43,903 bases of DNA, taken from an uncultured Bacilli bacterium (GTDB taxonomy: Bacteria > Bacillota_I > Bacilli_A > RF39 > UBA660). The notes beneath the pieces are model-generated. The model had not been told where the DNA came from, did no database searches, and worked only from the letters and a program-made list of their open reading frames with translations. The stretch is from assembly GCA_947625635.1 (NCBI GenBank), contig CANQPA010000006.1, positions 1 to 43,903 of the forward strand, given 5' to 3'. The position numbers and the translations under genes were made by a program. Of the stretch, positions 31,885 to 38,732 are shown one piece after another (the first letter of the stretch is position 1; each line of letters starts with the position of its first letter).

Positions 31885-31913
31885 TTGACAATTTATCATA
31901 AATTTGATACAAT
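31885..31913 (+). promoter_or_regulatory. Promoter of the large non-coding RNA
   Basis: A perfect TTGACA (31885-31890), 17 bp, then TACAAT (31908-31913). Transcription should begin near 31920, just before the 5' half of the RNA's closing stem (31923-31928). Confidence 0.85.
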
Positions 31914-31919
31914 TCTATT

Positions 31920-32530
31920 CGCAATGGCACATTATTCTAGTCATTTAATTTATTATGAGGACGGGGCTAAAAATCCGTTAAAGAGCATACCTGTGAAACT
32001 TCTTGTGCTTGCTTTGATTGCCCAAATTAGGGTGAGTGCTGGAAATGAGAATGTTGGGCATCCATAATGGCATATGTAAATGACCCACCATTCGTGGAGA
32101 CCTATTGTTGTGTATAGCCTATACGTAATTACTGATGGACTGTATACGAAATAGGATTAAACCTACTTTGTGACGAAAGTTATGAGTAGTGTAGCTTGTC
32201 TTGAGTGAATAATTGGGATAATTGATTAACAAACTGGTAAGTTTATAGCTAGAATCTACATGGTTTGCAATTTGAAATATTGTTTGCAAAAAAGAATTAA
32301 TAATAAATGGATGTTGAGGAAATCTCCTAGAGTGTTGTTACTACGAGATTATAGTGCGTACTAAGTGGCAATCAAGTAGTGTATTCGGTGACGATATACT
32401 AAGATTTTTAAAGGGGAACCGCTTGTTGGTAACGATAAGTAAATATTAGGGAAATCCGACTTGACCTATGACGTAAAGTTAATCGTATTAACGCCATTAT
32501 ATAAAAAGAATCGTTTTGGATTCTTTTTTT
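31920..32530 (+). ncRNA. Large structured non-coding RNA, probably OLE-type (about 610 nt)
   Basis: Between a near-consensus promoter and a strong terminator lies about 610 nt without a credible coding frame. G+C is about 39% over 31981-32220, against about 22% in a sampled line of the gene before it. Pairings I can draw: closing stem AATGGC 31923-31928 with GCCATT 32493-32498; GTCAT 31940-31944 with ATGAC 32468-32472; TGCCCAA 32019-32025 with TTGGGCA 32054-32060, extended by GAT/ATC; CCAC/GTGG 32085-32097; TTTGCAA 32264-32270 with TTGCAAA 32284-32290; AATCTC 32321-32326 with GAGATT 32345-32350; AGTGTAT 32378-32384 with ATATACT 32394-32400; GTTAAT/ATTAAC just before the closing stem. Length, single-transcript layout and an OapA-like gene two genes downstream suggest OLE RNA. 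The presence of a large RNA is well supported; the family name is inference. Confidence 0.78.
32503..32530 (+). terminator. Intrinsic terminator of the large RNA
   Basis: AAGAATC (32506-32512) pairs with GATTCTT (32519-32525) around a GTTTTG loop, followed by a run of T to 32530. It starts five bases after the closing stem of the RNA. Confidence 0.92.
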
Positions 32531-32533
32531 GTA

Positions 32534-32562
32534 TTGTATAAAAAAAGTAAATATGGTATATT
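32534..32562 (+). promoter_or_regulatory. Promoter of the deacetylase-oapA pair
   Basis: TTGTAT (32534-32539), 17 bp, and TATATT (32557-32562) with an extended TGG in front. It begins right after the terminator, so the protein genes need not depend on read-through from the RNA gene. Confidence 0.6.
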
Positions 32563-32577
32563 GTAATAGGTGATAAT

Positions 32578-33834
32578 ATGAAAAATAATTTGTTAATAAG
32601 TTTAACTGTTATATTATTTGTTTTACTAATAATTTTTTTGTCATTGAATATAAAAAAAGAAAAGGAAACAAATAAAGCTACATCAAAAGAAAATACTATT
32701 ATTGAAGACATAAAGAAACATTATAATGAGTATGTTACAACAAATAAAGAAACAATTCTCTATAAAAAAGAAAATGATGAATATATTGAAGCAGGCAAAA
32801 TTAATAAAAATGTTAATCTTAAACTTTCAAATGTAGAAATAAATGTTGATACAAAATATTTTTACTTACCAGATTTAGATTTATATATTAATTATATTGA
32901 TGTAGAACCAATAGAAAAATATACAAAAAATAGTAGATTTAAAAATTATATTTACTTTAATAGTAATATAATTACAAAAAATTCTACAACTTTTTATGAC
33001 GTTGATAATAACTATCTTTATACATTAAATGATTCATTTGAATTTAAAATATTAATAAAAGATGAAGATAGATATGGGGTTGTTTTTAATGATGAGCTAC
33101 TTTATATAAGTAATAATGACGTAGAAAAAATCTATGATAATTTAAATACAGATTTAAAAAACAAATCAAAAATTAGAACGCTTACTTATCATTTTATATA
33201 TAATCCAGAAAAACAAGAATGCGATCAGTCAATTTGTCAATCACTAGAACAATTTGAATCTCATTTGAAATATATAAGAGAAAATAATTATTTTACTTTA
33301 AATATGGATGAGCTTGATATGTATTTAGATGGTAAGTTACAAATACCAGAAAAAAGTATAGTTATTACAATTGATGATGGAACTACCCTTGATTTAGATG
33401 CTGTAAAATTATTGGAGAAGTATGATATAAATGCTACACTATTTGTAATAACAAGTTGGGTTGATCCATCTCCATATAAATCTACTAATTTGGATTTCGA
33501 GTCACATACTGATAATATGCATAATCAATACGAATGTAAAGGGTATGGAATGCAGGGTGGTGGAATACTTTGCTTACCAGAAGAGCAAATCTTGAATGAC
33601 TTGAAAACAAGTCAAAATAAATTAGGTGGAAGTAAATACTTTGCATATCCATTTTTTGATTTTAATGATAGGGCCATTGCACTTTTAAAAAAAGCAGGTT
33701 TTAAAATGGCATTCATTGGTCAATATGATACAGAAGGTTATTCATATCCTAAAAAGACAGATAAATATAAGGTAAGAAGAATGACAATATTTTCTAATAC
33801 ATCAATGGAAGAATTCATATCATATTTGAAGTAA
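32578..33834 (+). CDS. Membrane-anchored polysaccharide deacetylase (NodB domain)
   Basis: A 418-residue protein with an N-terminal membrane anchor (about 5-22), a middle beta-rich domain (about 40-190) and a C-terminal carbohydrate esterase 4 domain (about 255-410). The metal and catalytic residues are visible: ITIDDGT (D266, D267) and SHTDNMH (H310, H315). KYFAYPFFDFND and FKMAFIGQYDTEG are the later family motifs. It should remove N-acetyl groups from peptidoglycan or from the exported glycan outside the cell. AGGTGATAAT precedes ATG 32578. It is followed after 14 bp by the OapA-like gene, and both lie just after the large RNA. Confidence 0.9.
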   Translation: MKNNLLISLTVILFVLLIIFLSLNIKKEKETNKATSKENTIIEDIKKHYNEYVTTNKETILYKKENDEYIEAGKINKNVNLKLSNVEINVDTKYFYLPDLDLYINYIDVEPIEKYTKNSRFKNYIYFNSNIITKNSTTFYDVDNNYLYTLNDSFEFKILIKDEDRYGVVFNDELLYISNNDVEKIYDNLNTDLKNKSKIRTLTYHFIYNPEKQECDQSICQSLEQFESHLKYIRENNYFTLNMDELDMYLDGKLQIPEKSIVITIDDGTTLDLDAVKLLEKYDINATLFVITSWVDPSPYKSTNLDFESHTDNMHNQYECKGYGMQGGGILCLPEEQILNDLKTSQNKLGGSKYFAYPFFDFNDRAIALLKKAGFKMAFIGQYDTEGYSYPKKTDKYKVRRMTIFSNTSMEEFISYLK

Positions 33835-33848
33835 AATAGAGGTAATAT

Positions 33849-34394
33849 ATGAAAAAAAGTATAAGCAAAAAGTTTGTTGATTATAATTGGATTTTAAAAA
33901 TCATAATTATATCTTTTTTAATTTCAATTCTATTTAGTTTTATAGCAGAAACAGCAATACCAAATGTTAATATAATATTTGGCGTATTACTTACACTGAT
34001 ATTTATTTTTATAGGTATAATATTTGATATGATAGGCGTTTCTGTTGCTTCAGCAGATGAATCTAAATTTCATTCTATGGCTTCAAAAAAAATAAGAGGC
34101 GCAAAAATGGCTATCAAATTAAAAAGAAATGCTGATAAAGTATCCAGCTTTTGTAATGATGTTGTGGGGGACATATGTGGAATTATTTCAGGTTCTACAG
34201 GAACTGTTATAGCAATTAAATTAATTGAAATATTTAAAGTTAATGATTTATTGGTAACTTTAATTGTTGTAGGATTTATATCCTCTCTTACCATCGGTGG
34301 CAAAGCTTTAGTCAAAGGGATTGCTATGAGAAAAAGTGATAAGATTTTATTTATATTTGCTAAGTTTTTAAATTTTTTTAGGAATATCAATTAA
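33849..34394 (+). CDS. oapA: OapA-like membrane protein (OLE RNA-associated; DUF21/CorB-like)
   Basis: The 181-residue protein has four hydrophobic helices at about 13-35, 41-66, 107-125 and 133-155. Between helices 2 and 3 is a basic cytoplasmic-type loop: ADESKFHSMASKKIRGAKMA, then IKLKRNADKVSS. Next comes NDVVGDICGIISGSTG. This is how I remember the OLE-associated protein OapA, a small relative of the DUF21 domain of CorB-type magnesium proteins without CBS domains. By family knowledge OapA binds OLE RNA and brings it to the membrane; mutants are affected by magnesium, cold and alcohols. The roughly 600-nt RNA gene 1.3 kb upstream fits. AGAGGTAATAT is the ribosome site. The name rests on recall of the family without a search. 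Confidence 0.68.
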   Translation: MKKSISKKFVDYNWILKIIIISFLISILFSFIAETAIPNVNIIFGVLLTLIFIFIGIIFDMIGVSVASADESKFHSMASKKIRGAKMAIKLKRNADKVSSFCNDVVGDICGIISGSTGTVIAIKLIEIFKVNDLLVTLIVVGFISSLTIGGKALVKGIAMRKSDKILFIFAKFLNFFRNIN

Positions 34395-34448: not shown

Positions 34449-35723
34449 ATGTTTATTGATGAAGTGATTATTGAGTTAAATGCTGGGCGTGGCGGAAATG
34501 GCTGTATGGCATTTAGAAGAGAAAAATATATTGAAATGGGAGGACCATACGGCGGAAATGGCGGAAATGGTGGAAATATTGTTTTTGAAGTAGATGAAGG
34601 ATTAAATACACTTATAGATTTAAGATATAAAAAGTTGTATAAAGCAAAATCTGGAGAACACGGTGAGGGAAAAGGTTGTAATGGAAAAAATGCTGAAGAT
34701 TTAATTATAAAAGTACCTATTGGTACAGTAATAACGGATTTAGATACAAATTTAATCATAGGAGATTTAACTAAAAAAGGTGAAAAAGTAGTGGCTGCAT
34801 ATGGTGGAAGAGGTGGAAGAGGCAACATGTCCTTTGCAACTAGAAATAATCCAGCACCTGCATTTTGTGAAAACGGCGAACCTGGAGAATATAAAAAAGT
34901 CAAAGTAGAACTTAAATTATTAGCAGATGTAGGTCTTGTTGGGATGCCAAGTGTTGGGAAGAGTACTTTTATAAGTAAAGTAAGTTCAGCTAAACCAAAA
35001 ATAGCTGCGTATCATTTTACAACTTTAACTCCAAATTTAGGCGTTGTGAAAACTAAAGATAATAGGTCTTTTGTGATAGCTGATTTACCTGGTTTAATTG
35101 AAGGTGCTTCAAATGGTGAAGGGCTAGGAGACAAGTTTTTAAAGCATATTGAAAGAACAAGAATAATTGCTCATGTAATTGATATGTCTGGTATTGAAGG
35201 TAGAGACCCTTTAAGTGATTATAAAATCGTAAACAGAGAATTGAAAAATTTTAACGTGAAACTAATGGATAAACCACAAATAGTGATTGCAAATAAAATG
35301 GATATGGAGTCTTCTAAAAGTAATTTAGAAAAATTCAAAAAAGAAGTAAAATGTAATATATATCCAATTAGTGCGATTACTGGTAAAGGGCTAGATGAAG
35401 TTTTAATTGAAATAGCAAATATACTTGATAAAATTGAAAAATCGCCTTTGTATGAAGAAGAAAAATTTGAAAGTCACGTATTATATAAATTTAAGCAAGA
35501 GCAACCATTTAAAATAATTAAAGAAGGTAACATATTTGTAGTTTCTGGTGAAAAAGTAGAAAAATTACTTAAAATGACTTGGTTTTCAAGTGATGAGGCC
35601 TTCTTAAGATTTTCTAAAAAATTAAGAAAACTTGGCATAGATGAAAAATTAAAGGAAATGGGAATAAAAGATGGAGATACTGTTCGTATTTTAGATTATG
35701 AATTTGAATATAGAGCCGATTAG
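34449..35723 (+). CDS. obg: GTPase Obg (ribosome assembly / stress)
   Basis: The 424-residue essential GTPase acts in late 50S subunit assembly. The glycine-rich Obg fold covers 1-158 (ELNAGRGGNGCMAFRREKYI, GGPYGGNGGNGG, GGRGGRGNMSFAT). The G domain covers about 159-330 with GMPSVGKST (G1), TTLTPNLG (G2), DLPGLIEGAS (G3) and ANKMD (G4). The C-terminal OCT domain covers about 345-424 (FKIIKEGNIFVVSG ... FEY), as in Bacillus and Staphylococcus Obg. ATG 34449 follows GAGGTGATTTT; TATAAT at 34427-34432 is a probable -10. Here it follows the OapA-like gene and not rpmA, as is usual in Bacilli. Confidence 0.96.
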   Translation: MFIDEVIIELNAGRGGNGCMAFRREKYIEMGGPYGGNGGNGGNIVFEVDEGLNTLIDLRYKKLYKAKSGEHGEGKGCNGKNAEDLIIKVPIGTVITDLDTNLIIGDLTKKGEKVVAAYGGRGGRGNMSFATRNNPAPAFCENGEPGEYKKVKVELKLLADVGLVGMPSVGKSTFISKVSSAKPKIAAYHFTTLTPNLGVVKTKDNRSFVIADLPGLIEGASNGEGLGDKFLKHIERTRIIAHVIDMSGIEGRDPLSDYKIVNRELKNFNVKLMDKPQIVIANKMDMESSKSNLEKFKKEVKCNIYPISAITGKGLDEVLIEIANILDKIEKSPLYEEEKFESHVLYKFKQEQPFKIIKEGNIFVVSGEKVEKLLKMTWFSSDEAFLRFSKKLRKLGIDEKLKEMGIKDGDTVRILDYEFEYRAD

Positions 35724-35749
35724 GTATTTGTTTGATATAAATTACAAAT

Positions 35750-35780
35750 AAAAAAAAAGAAATTTCTTTCTTTTTTTTTT
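35750..35780 (+). terminator. A/T-rich terminator after obg
   Basis: A run of A, then AGAAATTTCT and a long run of T. The stem is entirely weak except for the two G/C pairs, but the long T tract and the position after obg make termination likely, perhaps in both directions. Confidence 0.5.
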
Positions 35781-35813
35781 AGACATGATATAATATATTT
35801 AGTGGTGATATTT

Positions 35814-36539
35814 ATGCTGTATACATCAACAAAAAATCAAAGAATTAGGCAATTAAAAAAATTAAATCAGAAGAAGTATAGAGATGAATCTAATGAATTT
35901 TTAATAGAAGGTGAACATTTAGTACAAGAGGCTTACCAAAAAGGATTTTTAAAGGAATTATTTTTAAAACAGGGAATAGATTTTAAATTAGATGTGAAAA
36001 CTAGTTACATAACTAATGATGTTTTAAAATATGTAAGTAATTTAGATAATTCTTCGGGTATTATAGGGTTATGTGATAAAATTAATTCTGATACAATTGG
36101 AAATAAGGTATTAATATTAGATGAAATTCAGGATCCAGGTAACTTAGGAACAATAATTAGAAGTGCTGTTGCGTTTAATATTGATTCAATTATCTTAAGT
36201 GATAATACTGTCGATTTGTATAATGATAAAGTGTTACGTGCAACTCAAGGTATGATATTTAATATAAATATTATTAAGAAAAATTTATTATCATTTATAC
36301 CAGAATTAAAAAATAATGGATATAAAATTTATGGTACGAGGGTAAATTGTGGAAAAAATTTAAAAAATATTGAAAAGAATAAAAAATTTGCTATAATAGT
36401 TGGTAACGAGGGAAATGGAATTAAAAAAGATATATTAAATTTATGTAGTGATTATATTTATATAGATATGAATAAAAATTGTGAAAGTTTGAATGTTGCA
36501 GTTGCGACTAGTATAATACTATATGAATTAGATAAGTAG
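35814..36539 (+). CDS. TrmH/SpoU-family RNA methyltransferase (YsgA-like)
   Basis: A 241-residue SPOUT enzyme that methylates ribose 2'-OH, probably on 23S rRNA. The N-terminal substrate-binding part (STKNQRIRQLKKLNQKKYRDE ... FLIEGEHLVQEA) is like Bacillus YsgA. The knotted SAM domain has LDEIQDPGNLGTIIRSAVAFNID, IIVGNEGNGI and SLNVAVATSIILYEL, the three SpoU motifs. I prefer ATG 35814, after GGTGAT (35804-35809), over GTG 35802, which would put the ribosome site inside the gene. TATAAT at 35789-35794 with TGA before it is a likely -10 box. The target nucleotide is not known from sequence. Confidence 0.9.
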   Translation: MLYTSTKNQRIRQLKKLNQKKYRDESNEFLIEGEHLVQEAYQKGFLKELFLKQGIDFKLDVKTSYITNDVLKYVSNLDNSSGIIGLCDKINSDTIGNKVLILDEIQDPGNLGTIIRSAVAFNIDSIILSDNTVDLYNDKVLRATQGMIFNINIIKKNLLSFIPELKNNGYKIYGTRVNCGKNLKNIEKNKKFAIIVGNEGNGIKKDILNLCSDYIYIDMNKNCESLNVAVATSIILYELDK

Positions 36540-36546
36540 GTGTTTT

Positions 36547-37032
36547 ATGGAATACATATACATAGGCAAACTTGTAAATACACACGGTATTAAAGGTGAG
36601 GTTAGAATAATTAGCGATTTTAAATTTAAAAATGATGTTTTTTTGCCAAATAATACTATATATATTAACAAGCAGAAATATAATATAGTTTCATATAGGC
36701 ATCACAAAACATTTGATATGCTAATTCTAGATGGTATAAATAATATTGACGATGCTTTGAAATTAAAAGGAAGCAACGTATATATAAACAAAAATGATTA
36801 TGTTTTTGATGATTATTTAGATGAAGATTTAATTGGAATGTTAGTTTATGATAATGAAAGATACAAAGGAAAAGTAGTAGACATATATAAAACAAATTAT
36901 AATACTATATTAGTTATTGATGGTATAAAACACCACTTAGTACCGAATATTAAGCAATTTATTAATAAAATAGATTTTAACAATAAAAAAATATATGTTA
37001 ATTATATAGCGGGGTTAGATAATGAAAATTGA
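36547..37032 (+). CDS. rimM: 16S rRNA processing protein RimM
   Basis: A 161-residue assembly factor for the 30S subunit head that binds S19. The N-terminal RimM barrel shows IYIGKLVNTHGIKGEVRI and the C-terminal PRC-barrel shows DEDLIGMLVYDNERYKGKVVDIY and HHLVPNIKQFI. It starts 7 nt after the methyltransferase gene, with TAGGTGTTTT as ribosome site, and overlaps trmD by 11 nt. The usual neighbours rpsP and rplS are absent on both sides, so only the core pair is kept. Confidence 0.93.
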   Translation: MEYIYIGKLVNTHGIKGEVRIISDFKFKNDVFLPNNTIYINKQKYNIVSYRHHKTFDMLILDGINNIDDALKLKGSNVYINKNDYVFDDYLDEDLIGMLVYDNERYKGKVVDIYKTNYNTILVIDGIKHHLVPNIKQFINKIDFNNKKIYVNYIAGLDNEN

Positions 37033-37690
37033 TATTTTGTCACTTTTTCCGAGTATGTTTGATGGTTTTAAAAATGAGTCAATTATAAAAAGAGCTATAG
37101 ATAGAAATTTAGTAGAAATTAATATACATAATATTAGAGACTATTCTAAAGATCCGCATAAAAAAGTAGATGATTATGGTTTTGGTGGAGGCGCAGGAAT
37201 GGTTTTAATGCCACAACCAATATTTGACGCCGTAGCCGATCTAAAAAAGGATAATTCAAAAGTGATATTAATGACACCTCAAGGTATTAAATATAATCAG
37301 AAGAAGGCATATGAATTATCACTTGAAAATCATTTAATAATAATTTGTGGACACTACGAGGGATTTGATGAACGCATAAGAAGCATTGCTGATATGGAAA
37401 TAAGTATTGGTGATTTTGTATTAACAGGTGGTGAAATTCCAGCAATGGCCATTAGTGATAGTATAATTAGACTATTGGACGGTGTAATAGAAAAAGAATC
37501 GCATTTAAATGACTCGTTTAATAATAATTTGCTAGATTATCCAGTCTATACACATCCAAAAGAGTATAATGGTATGAAAGTTCCAGATATTCTTTTATCC
37601 GGACACCATGCTAATATAGAAAAGTGGAGAATCGAACAACAAAATAAAAGAACAAAAGAAAGAAGACCTGATTTGTTAGAAGAGAGATGA
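37022..37690 (+). CDS. trmD: tRNA (guanine37-N1)-methyltransferase
   Basis: A 222-residue SPOUT enzyme making m1G37 in tRNAs, which prevents frameshifting. Motifs: MKIDILSLFPSMFDGF, YGFGGGAGMVLMPQPI, GHYEGFDERI and IGDFVLTGGEIPAMAISDSI, which forms the knot with the SAM site. ESHLNDSF and LDYPVYTHPKEYNG complete the family set. Full length, with an 11-nt overlap with rimM. The stop is TGA, direct evidence for TGA as a stop codon in this genome. Confidence 0.96.
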   Translation: MKIDILSLFPSMFDGFKNESIIKRAIDRNLVEINIHNIRDYSKDPHKKVDDYGFGGGAGMVLMPQPIFDAVADLKKDNSKVILMTPQGIKYNQKKAYELSLENHLIIICGHYEGFDERIRSIADMEISIGDFVLTGGEIPAMAISDSIIRLLDGVIEKESHLNDSFNNNLLDYPVYTHPKEYNGMKVPDILLSGHHANIEKWRIEQQNKRTKERRPDLLEER

Positions 37691-38342: not shown

Positions 38343-38732
38343 GTGAGTAAAGAAAGAGAAAATAAAAATGAAATGTCGAATGAATTTATCGAGAAAAAAA
38401 ATAATAATAATAAATATTTAATAGTTATATTTTTATATATCTTCGTAATAATTTTATCTATATTTTTAGTCTTAGGATTAAAGAATAAAAAAGATGATGT
38501 ATTAGATAAGATAAACGAAAATAATAATTATGTTGAAGATGGTGAGATAGACAATAATAATTTGGAAGATAATTATATTGATGGGGAACAAGAAATTACT
38601 GATGATTCTGATGTAGAAAAAGATATTGATATTGATGCCAACGATAGTAATAATAGCGATAATGAAGACAATATTAATAGTAGCGATAGAGAAATTAACG
38701 ATTTAGAAACTTTCGTTGATATGCTTGGTTAA
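38343..38732 (+). CDS. Single-pass membrane protein with very acidic low-complexity tail
   Basis: About 129 residues. I choose GTG 38343, which follows AGGTGAT (38332-38338) with good spacing; an earlier in-frame GTG at 38334 lies inside that site. A Lys/Asn-rich N-terminus, one strong helix (about 23-45), a KNKK stop and then about 80 residues of Asp, Glu, Asn and Ser follow. The tail resembles a disordered spacer. It ends LETFVDMLG, perhaps a short docking peptide. It is co-transcribed with the pilin-like gene 13 bp downstream. Function unknown. Confidence 0.72.
   Translation: MSKERENKNEMSNEFIEKKNNNNKYLIVIFLYIFVIILSIFLVLGLKNKKDDVLDKINENNNYVEDGEIDNNNLEDNYIDGEQEITDDSDVEKDIDIDANDSNNSDNEDNINSSDREINDLETFVDMLG

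Follow-up and report, generated by a model that had tools for sequence, protein, structure and literature searches.

OLE RNAs are among the largest structured bacterial RNAs and have no known biochemical function. A first-pass annotation, made from the letters of a stretch of DNA of an uncultured Bacilli bacterium (RF39; UBA660), took one segment of it for an OLE ribonucleoprotein locus placed beside envelope genes in a host far from the classical extremophiles, which raises the question of whether this RNA is an OLE and, if so, how much of the ribonucleoprotein remains in such a host. We addressed this question in the whole stretch (43,903 nt, contig CANQPA010000006.1 of assembly GCA_947625635.1; hereafter the window) and by comparison of 145 genomes from the host's family. 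The host genome is a 1.3-Mb MAG that is 90% complete and 8% contaminated, and a single absence in it proves little, as the MAG is incomplete. The host is indeed far from the classical extremophiles, but such a host is not a novelty: Fernando and Breaker reported OLE from the uncultured gut clades RF39 and TANB77 in 2024, together with shortened OLE variants and the loss of OapB and OapC (PMC11332333). The OLE RNA class, its OapA partner and its presence in such gut hosts are all already known, and the additions made here are the separation of ole from oapA, the retention of RNA motifs without OapB and OapC, the turnover of the L9.3 palindrome, and the lack of an anticorrelation with MpfA.

A search with the Rfam OLE model, which the annotation had proposed, matched the full model (positions 1-616) at 378.2 bits (cut-off 50), and this is the only OLE copy in the host genome. 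The RNA is 606 nt long and its G+C content is 36%, versus 24.5% window-wide, close to the length of about 610 nt and the raised G+C that had been read from the sequence. Standard pairs were present at 139 of the 153 model pairs. We consider the identity of this RNA as OLE practically certain.

The published OLE fold is supported in the family by an alignment in which predicted pairs have changed on both sides. Among 64 near-full-length family OLEs, 91% of the base-pair cells were paired, versus 39-46% when the columns were slid by one to three, and two-sided changes, which the annotation had proposed to look for in related genomes, occurred at 113 of 144 model pairs (mean of shuffles, 84). The stem that had been proposed to join the two ends of the RNA consists of perfectly complementary strands, and in these 64 relatives its five outer pairs tested were 85% paired, with two-sided changes in three. 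The covariance model, the covariation and the relatives of OapA described below all agree with the original reading of an OLE ribonucleoprotein locus, the features of which are collected in Table 1.

Table 1. Features of the OLE locus in the window, with the evidence for each.
Feature	Position	Strand	Evidence
Sigma-A type promoter TTGACA-17-TACAAT, TG before second hexamer	31885..31913	+	Motif match and family comparison
OLE RNA gene, RF01071 full-model match	31908..32513	+	378.2 bits, E 1e-107
Terminal stem, 31923-31928 pairs with 32493-32498	31923..32498	+	Perfect complement; paired in relatives
P4 hairpin, A-rich loop GCUAAAAAUC (dimer bridge B1)	31960..31979	+	UAAA conservation; cryo-EM (PMC12286853)
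K-turn strands J4a/5 UGUGAAA and J6/7 GUGGAGA (OapC site in other species)	31988..32100	+	Conservation
P9.3 hairpin, self-complementary loop UAGCUA (dimer bridge B3)	32230..32266	+	Palindrome conservation
P12.2 and P13, loops GGUGAC and GGUAAC (where OapB makes contact in other species)	32379..32440	+	Conservation
Intrinsic-terminator-like hairpin and U run	32503..32530	+	Folding energy, z -6.6
418-aa secreted or anchored protein, polysaccharide deacetylase domain	32578..33834	+	PF01522, E 2e-12
OapA, 181-aa CNNM-type membrane protein	33849..34394	+	Identity to relatives, PF01595, fold matches

The annotated promoter was found at the 5' end of the RNA gene and matches the consensus at 11 of 12 positions. 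A lone match proves little, because shuffled versions of this AT-rich region yield such promoter-like matches just as often (23.6, versus 24 in the region itself). Across the family, sigma-A sites with at most one mismatch lay at the start of the model match or immediately before it in 68 of 95 OLE genes, versus 2 of 475 shuffled controls, and it is this comparison of predicted sites, not the single site, that constitutes the proof of the promoter. The strong terminator of the annotation corresponds to a terminator-like hairpin (32503-32527) followed by a U run, with a folding energy of -11.8 kcal/mol for the stretch; a consensus terminator scan did not pick up this hairpin, because its stem has few G-C pairs.

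The 181-aa protein encoded downstream is OapA. It is 48-57% identical to the OapAs encoded next to OLE in relatives, and the core CxDxxGDxCxxxSG is common to all 18 aligned OapAs. The OapA/DUF21 profile search that had been proposed for this protein gave a PF01595 (CNNM) match that scored 37 bits (cut-off 28.4). It had been described as a four-helix protein with a basic loop, and the predicted model (pLDDT 87) accordingly contains long helices at residues 12-39, 42-68, 95-129 and 133-161 and a Lys/Arg-rich stretch at about 82-98, while its five best PDB fold matches were all CNNM/CorC Mg2+ transporters (best E 1.7e-3). By its profile match and its model, the protein has the characters of the OapA class, namely a size of about 20 kDa, four membrane helices, likeness to CNNM proteins and a basic cytoplasmic patch. 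Its closest named relatives come from MAGs labelled uncultured Bacilli, Tenericutes, Mollicutes or Erysipelotrichaceae, many of them from animal guts, with genomes of about 0.5-1.7 Mb. One family genome (G112) carried two OapA genes (C48:29-562 and C110:6163-6696), by duplication or contamination.

The distribution of the two genes in the family was nearly identical. OLE was present in 98 of the 145 genomes and OapA likewise in 98; both were found in 96 and neither in 45, with two genomes having OLE only and two OapA only (Fisher p 1.6e-32). Three of these four discordant genomes (G018, G085 and G087; one OLE-only and both OapA-only) are probably explained by contig ends, which fall where the missing partner would be expected; in the fourth (G034), OLE follows a gene resembling that of glutamyl-tRNA synthetase and has no OapA in its vicinity. 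When named genomes were searched with OapA only, 73 of the 80 loci had OLE immediately upstream; this search reached the classical lineages Anaerosolibacter, Thermosediminibacteraceae and Petromonas, where OLE scored 404-558 bits and OapA was 43-49% identical. RNA placements made with an nhmmer OLE profile, the training set of which held some duplicated sequences, agreed with those of Infernal wherever both were run. Two OLE matches were observed in one genome (G025), at C14:9541-10150 (L040, 610 nt) and, near a contig end, at C3:70010-70394 (L039, 385 nt), the second being a candidate variant copy or a contaminant contig.

An oapA gene directly downstream of ole is usual for OLE loci but not obligatory. 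The gap between the two has a family median of 33 nt, and of 94 genomes 9 have a gap of more than 300 nt. In the window it is 1,336 nt and contains one gene, which the annotation had not mentioned, with strand and order unchanged. This intervening gene encodes a polysaccharide deacetylase in the window and in relatives L051 and L053, a 134-aa membrane protein in G048, which belongs to the window's genus, and a likely acyltransferase (judged by eye) in G036. In two further relatives, L058 and L077, with OapAs 69% and 64% identical to that of the window, the deacetylase and OapA genes stay and OLE is on another contig, following an Alg13-like glycosyltransferase gene (again by eye). Loss of the RNA in OapA-bearing relatives lacking an adjacent OLE was rejected for six of the seven genomes, as OLE was found elsewhere in them (372-411 bits). 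Relative L055 (G146), with an OapA 72% identical to that of the window, yielded no OLE anywhere in its 0.9-Mb assembly, and may be a case either of OapA occurring without OLE or of incomplete assembly.

The separation of the genes, the inserted deacetylase and the relocations could also be taken as signs that OLE is decaying in the window's sublineage and has become a dispensable relic, to which one could add that 47 of the 145 family genomes have no OLE match (45 of them also having no OapA), that some family OLEs are only about 380 or 480 nt long, and that G146 has OapA with no OLE found. However, the window RNA covers all 616 model positions, with standard pairs at most of the model pairs, and has a near-consensus promoter and a palindromic loop; the unlinked relatives retain OLE at high scores; and G146 is small and may be incomplete. 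We find decay hardly credible on this evidence. Both OLE and OapA are retained though unlinked, so that something other than co-transcription must account for the retention of the pair. As far as sequence comparison can tell, this shows that the RNA and OapA evolve as a pair despite the separation of their genes and the loss of two other partners.

The genes around the locus suggested another explanation, an envelope-modification operon in which OLE and OapA would act on or with the neighbouring deacetylase and O-acyltransferase genes. In the window, MBOAT/AlgJ-like, glycosyltransferase and deacetylase genes flank ole, the deacetylase gene also adjoins oapA in the close relatives L051, L053, L058 and L077, and a cell-wall link has been proposed by Fernando and Breaker (PMC11332333). 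However, the annotated placement beside envelope genes did not extend beyond the window and its closest relatives. Most family members have ole and oapA among unrelated genes (such as translation factors, ABC transporters and tRNA synthetases), and no conserved third gene beside ole and oapA was found across the family. Even within the genus the intervening gene differs (G048), and in the window a terminator stands between OLE and the deacetylase gene. A conserved envelope neighbourhood was rejected as a functional clue at the family level, the neighbours of the pair being unrelated, and we regard the operon as quite improbable. On the other side of oapA, an obgE-rlmB-rimM-trmD-like block (34449-37690) lies between this gene and a prepilin-like gene at 38716, which in relatives L051-L053, L055, L058 and L077 directly follows oapA; the block in the window is a rearrangement beside the OLE locus.

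The annotation had proposed that homologues of OapB and OapC be sought elsewhere in the genome, and none that was credible was found, either in the host or across the 145 family genomes. OapC (YbxF/L7Ae) was detected in 0 of 145 (7 of 14 control genomes were positive). In the host, adk, map and infA are adjacent, with no OapB gene intervening between the last two. A profile built from genuine OapBs, which are encoded between these two genes and were confirmed against PDB 7k9b, gave no credible match over the 145 genomes, with nothing better than E 0.002. The KOW profile PF00467 was rejected as a test for OapB, since even in classical OLE genomes it failed to detect this protein. The lack of OapB and OapC is not disqualifying for an OLE, as their absence is already published for RF39 and TANB77.

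The RNA motifs that these proteins contact in other species persisted in the family. Of the 75 near-full-length OLEs, 67 have the P13 loop GGUAAC and 66 have both k-turn strands; of the 22 short ones, 21 have GGUAAC but only 2 the J6/7 strand (GGAGA). Conservation of this kind is what protein contacts would give, and small analogues too divergent to detect could have taken over the roles of OapB and OapC by binding the P13 loop and the k-turn; because L7Ae and OapB homologues are undetectable, any such partner would have to be unrelated to them or very divergent. However, cryo-EM showed that the OLE k-turn forms in the RNA alone (PMC12286853), so that its conservation requires no protein, and the family offers no conserved third gene with ole and oapA. 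We consider divergent partners rather unlikely, and propose instead that OapB and OapC take no part, because the genomes lack them, and that their contact motifs would be retained, most simply, for the RNA's own fold.

In the published cryo-EM structure, the A-rich P4 loop forms bridge B1 of the OLE dimer, and two copies of L9.3 make a kissing contact through the palindromes GGCC, GAUC or AGCU (PMC12286853). We observed UAAA in P4 of 74 of the 75 near-full-length family OLEs and an A-rich P4 loop in all 22 short ones. The L9.3 tetramer was palindromic at fixed alignment columns in 58 of 69 OLEs, versus 28 expected when the 3' halves were shuffled (maximum 42 in 20,000), and palindromic in 66 of 69 with small register shifts, where the shifted cases may include chance palindromes; GUAC, UGCA, ACGU and UCGA appeared as further forms. 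Fixed columns were used after an automatic loop-centre rule was dropped as unreliable on asymmetric loops. Sixteen palindrome-to-palindrome changes were placed on the tree. This retention of self-complementarity despite sequence change extends the cryo-EM dimer, as a predicted structure, to the window's clade, and a loop that is nearly always self-complementary while its sequence varies provides independent evolutionary support for that dimer.

Family OLE lengths clustered near 600, 480-520 and 380 nt, the forms of about 480 and 380 nt occurring in other genera than the window's. A 480-nt example lacks P7, P8 and the P9 tip, and a 380-nt example lacks P5 to P8. Because the short OLEs lose the P9 tip (and mostly also the k-turn), the L9.3 contact cannot be essential everywhere. 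In four short OLEs (L186, L187, L192 and L195), GAUC, a published dimer palindrome, was seen in what appears to be a new short P9 hairpin.

The published anticorrelation between OLE and MpfA was not seen in this family, where a long CNNM protein occurred in 6 of 98 genomes with OLE and 1 of 47 without it. This weakens, here, the idea that OLE does MpfA's job.

Our best explanation of the locus as a whole, to which we assign a probability of roughly three in four, is an OLE ribonucleoprotein reduced to its core. The RNA, about 600 nt long, would be transcribed from a strong housekeeping promoter and end at its own terminator. Two copies probably form a dimer, with the A-rich P4 loop and the self-complementary L9.3 loop as its contacts, as conservation, covariation and the published cryo-EM suggest, and OapA, encoded further downstream, would anchor the dimer at the membrane, as work in Halalkalibacterium halodurans and the co-occurrence of the two genes suggest. 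An RNA dimer with OapA and free of OapB and OapC is, from the sequences, the somewhat favoured form of this complex. By homology, its most likely job would be the tuning of Mg2+ handling and of the membrane or envelope stress response, a function that we hold to be evenly balanced in its chances for the window OLE and that is inferred from H. halodurans only. Dimerisation, OapA anchoring and the Mg2+ and membrane-stress role have been inferred from work in H. halodurans and Clostridium (PMC9723947, PMC12286853, PMC12265935). We suggest tentatively, and with slightly less conviction than doubt, that OLE in this gut family is a two-component machine of RNA dimer and OapA, in which the OapB and OapC sites would primarily serve the quaternary fold, with the proteins as later or optional additions, and in which neither gene linkage nor substitution for MpfA would play a part. 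The window's lineage can be regarded as a natural simplification, in which the RNA and OapA stay paired even where their genes lie apart, and OapB, OapC and the MpfA trade-off are gone, so that the search for the core activity narrows to the RNA plus OapA.

Comparison with known systems places the locus as follows. The 181-aa protein shares the CNNM transmembrane fold with MpfA, CorB and CorC (CNNM, CBS and CorC domains); unlike them it has no CBS or CorC domain, only CNNM having been matched. It resembles OapA in its small size, its CNNM-type membrane character, its conserved core and its occurrence only with OLE, but differs from the OapAs of classical OLE hosts in sequence (43-49% identity), and its binding to OLE RNA is putative. 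With the full-length OLEs of H. halodurans and Clostridium the window RNA shares all 616 model positions, the helices of domains 1 and 2, the A-rich P4 loop, the k-turn strands, the P12.2 and P13 loops, the palindromic L9.3 loop and the OapA partner; in contrast to them, it lacks a short helix at model positions 424-435, its oapA lies 1.3 kb away behind the deacetylase gene, dxs does not follow, and its host is without OapB and OapC. It shares with the variant 1 and variant 2 OLEs of TANB77 and RF39 (PMC11332333) an uncultured gut host with a reduced genome and no OapB or OapC, but is itself of nearly full length, with P7, P8 and P9.3 retained.
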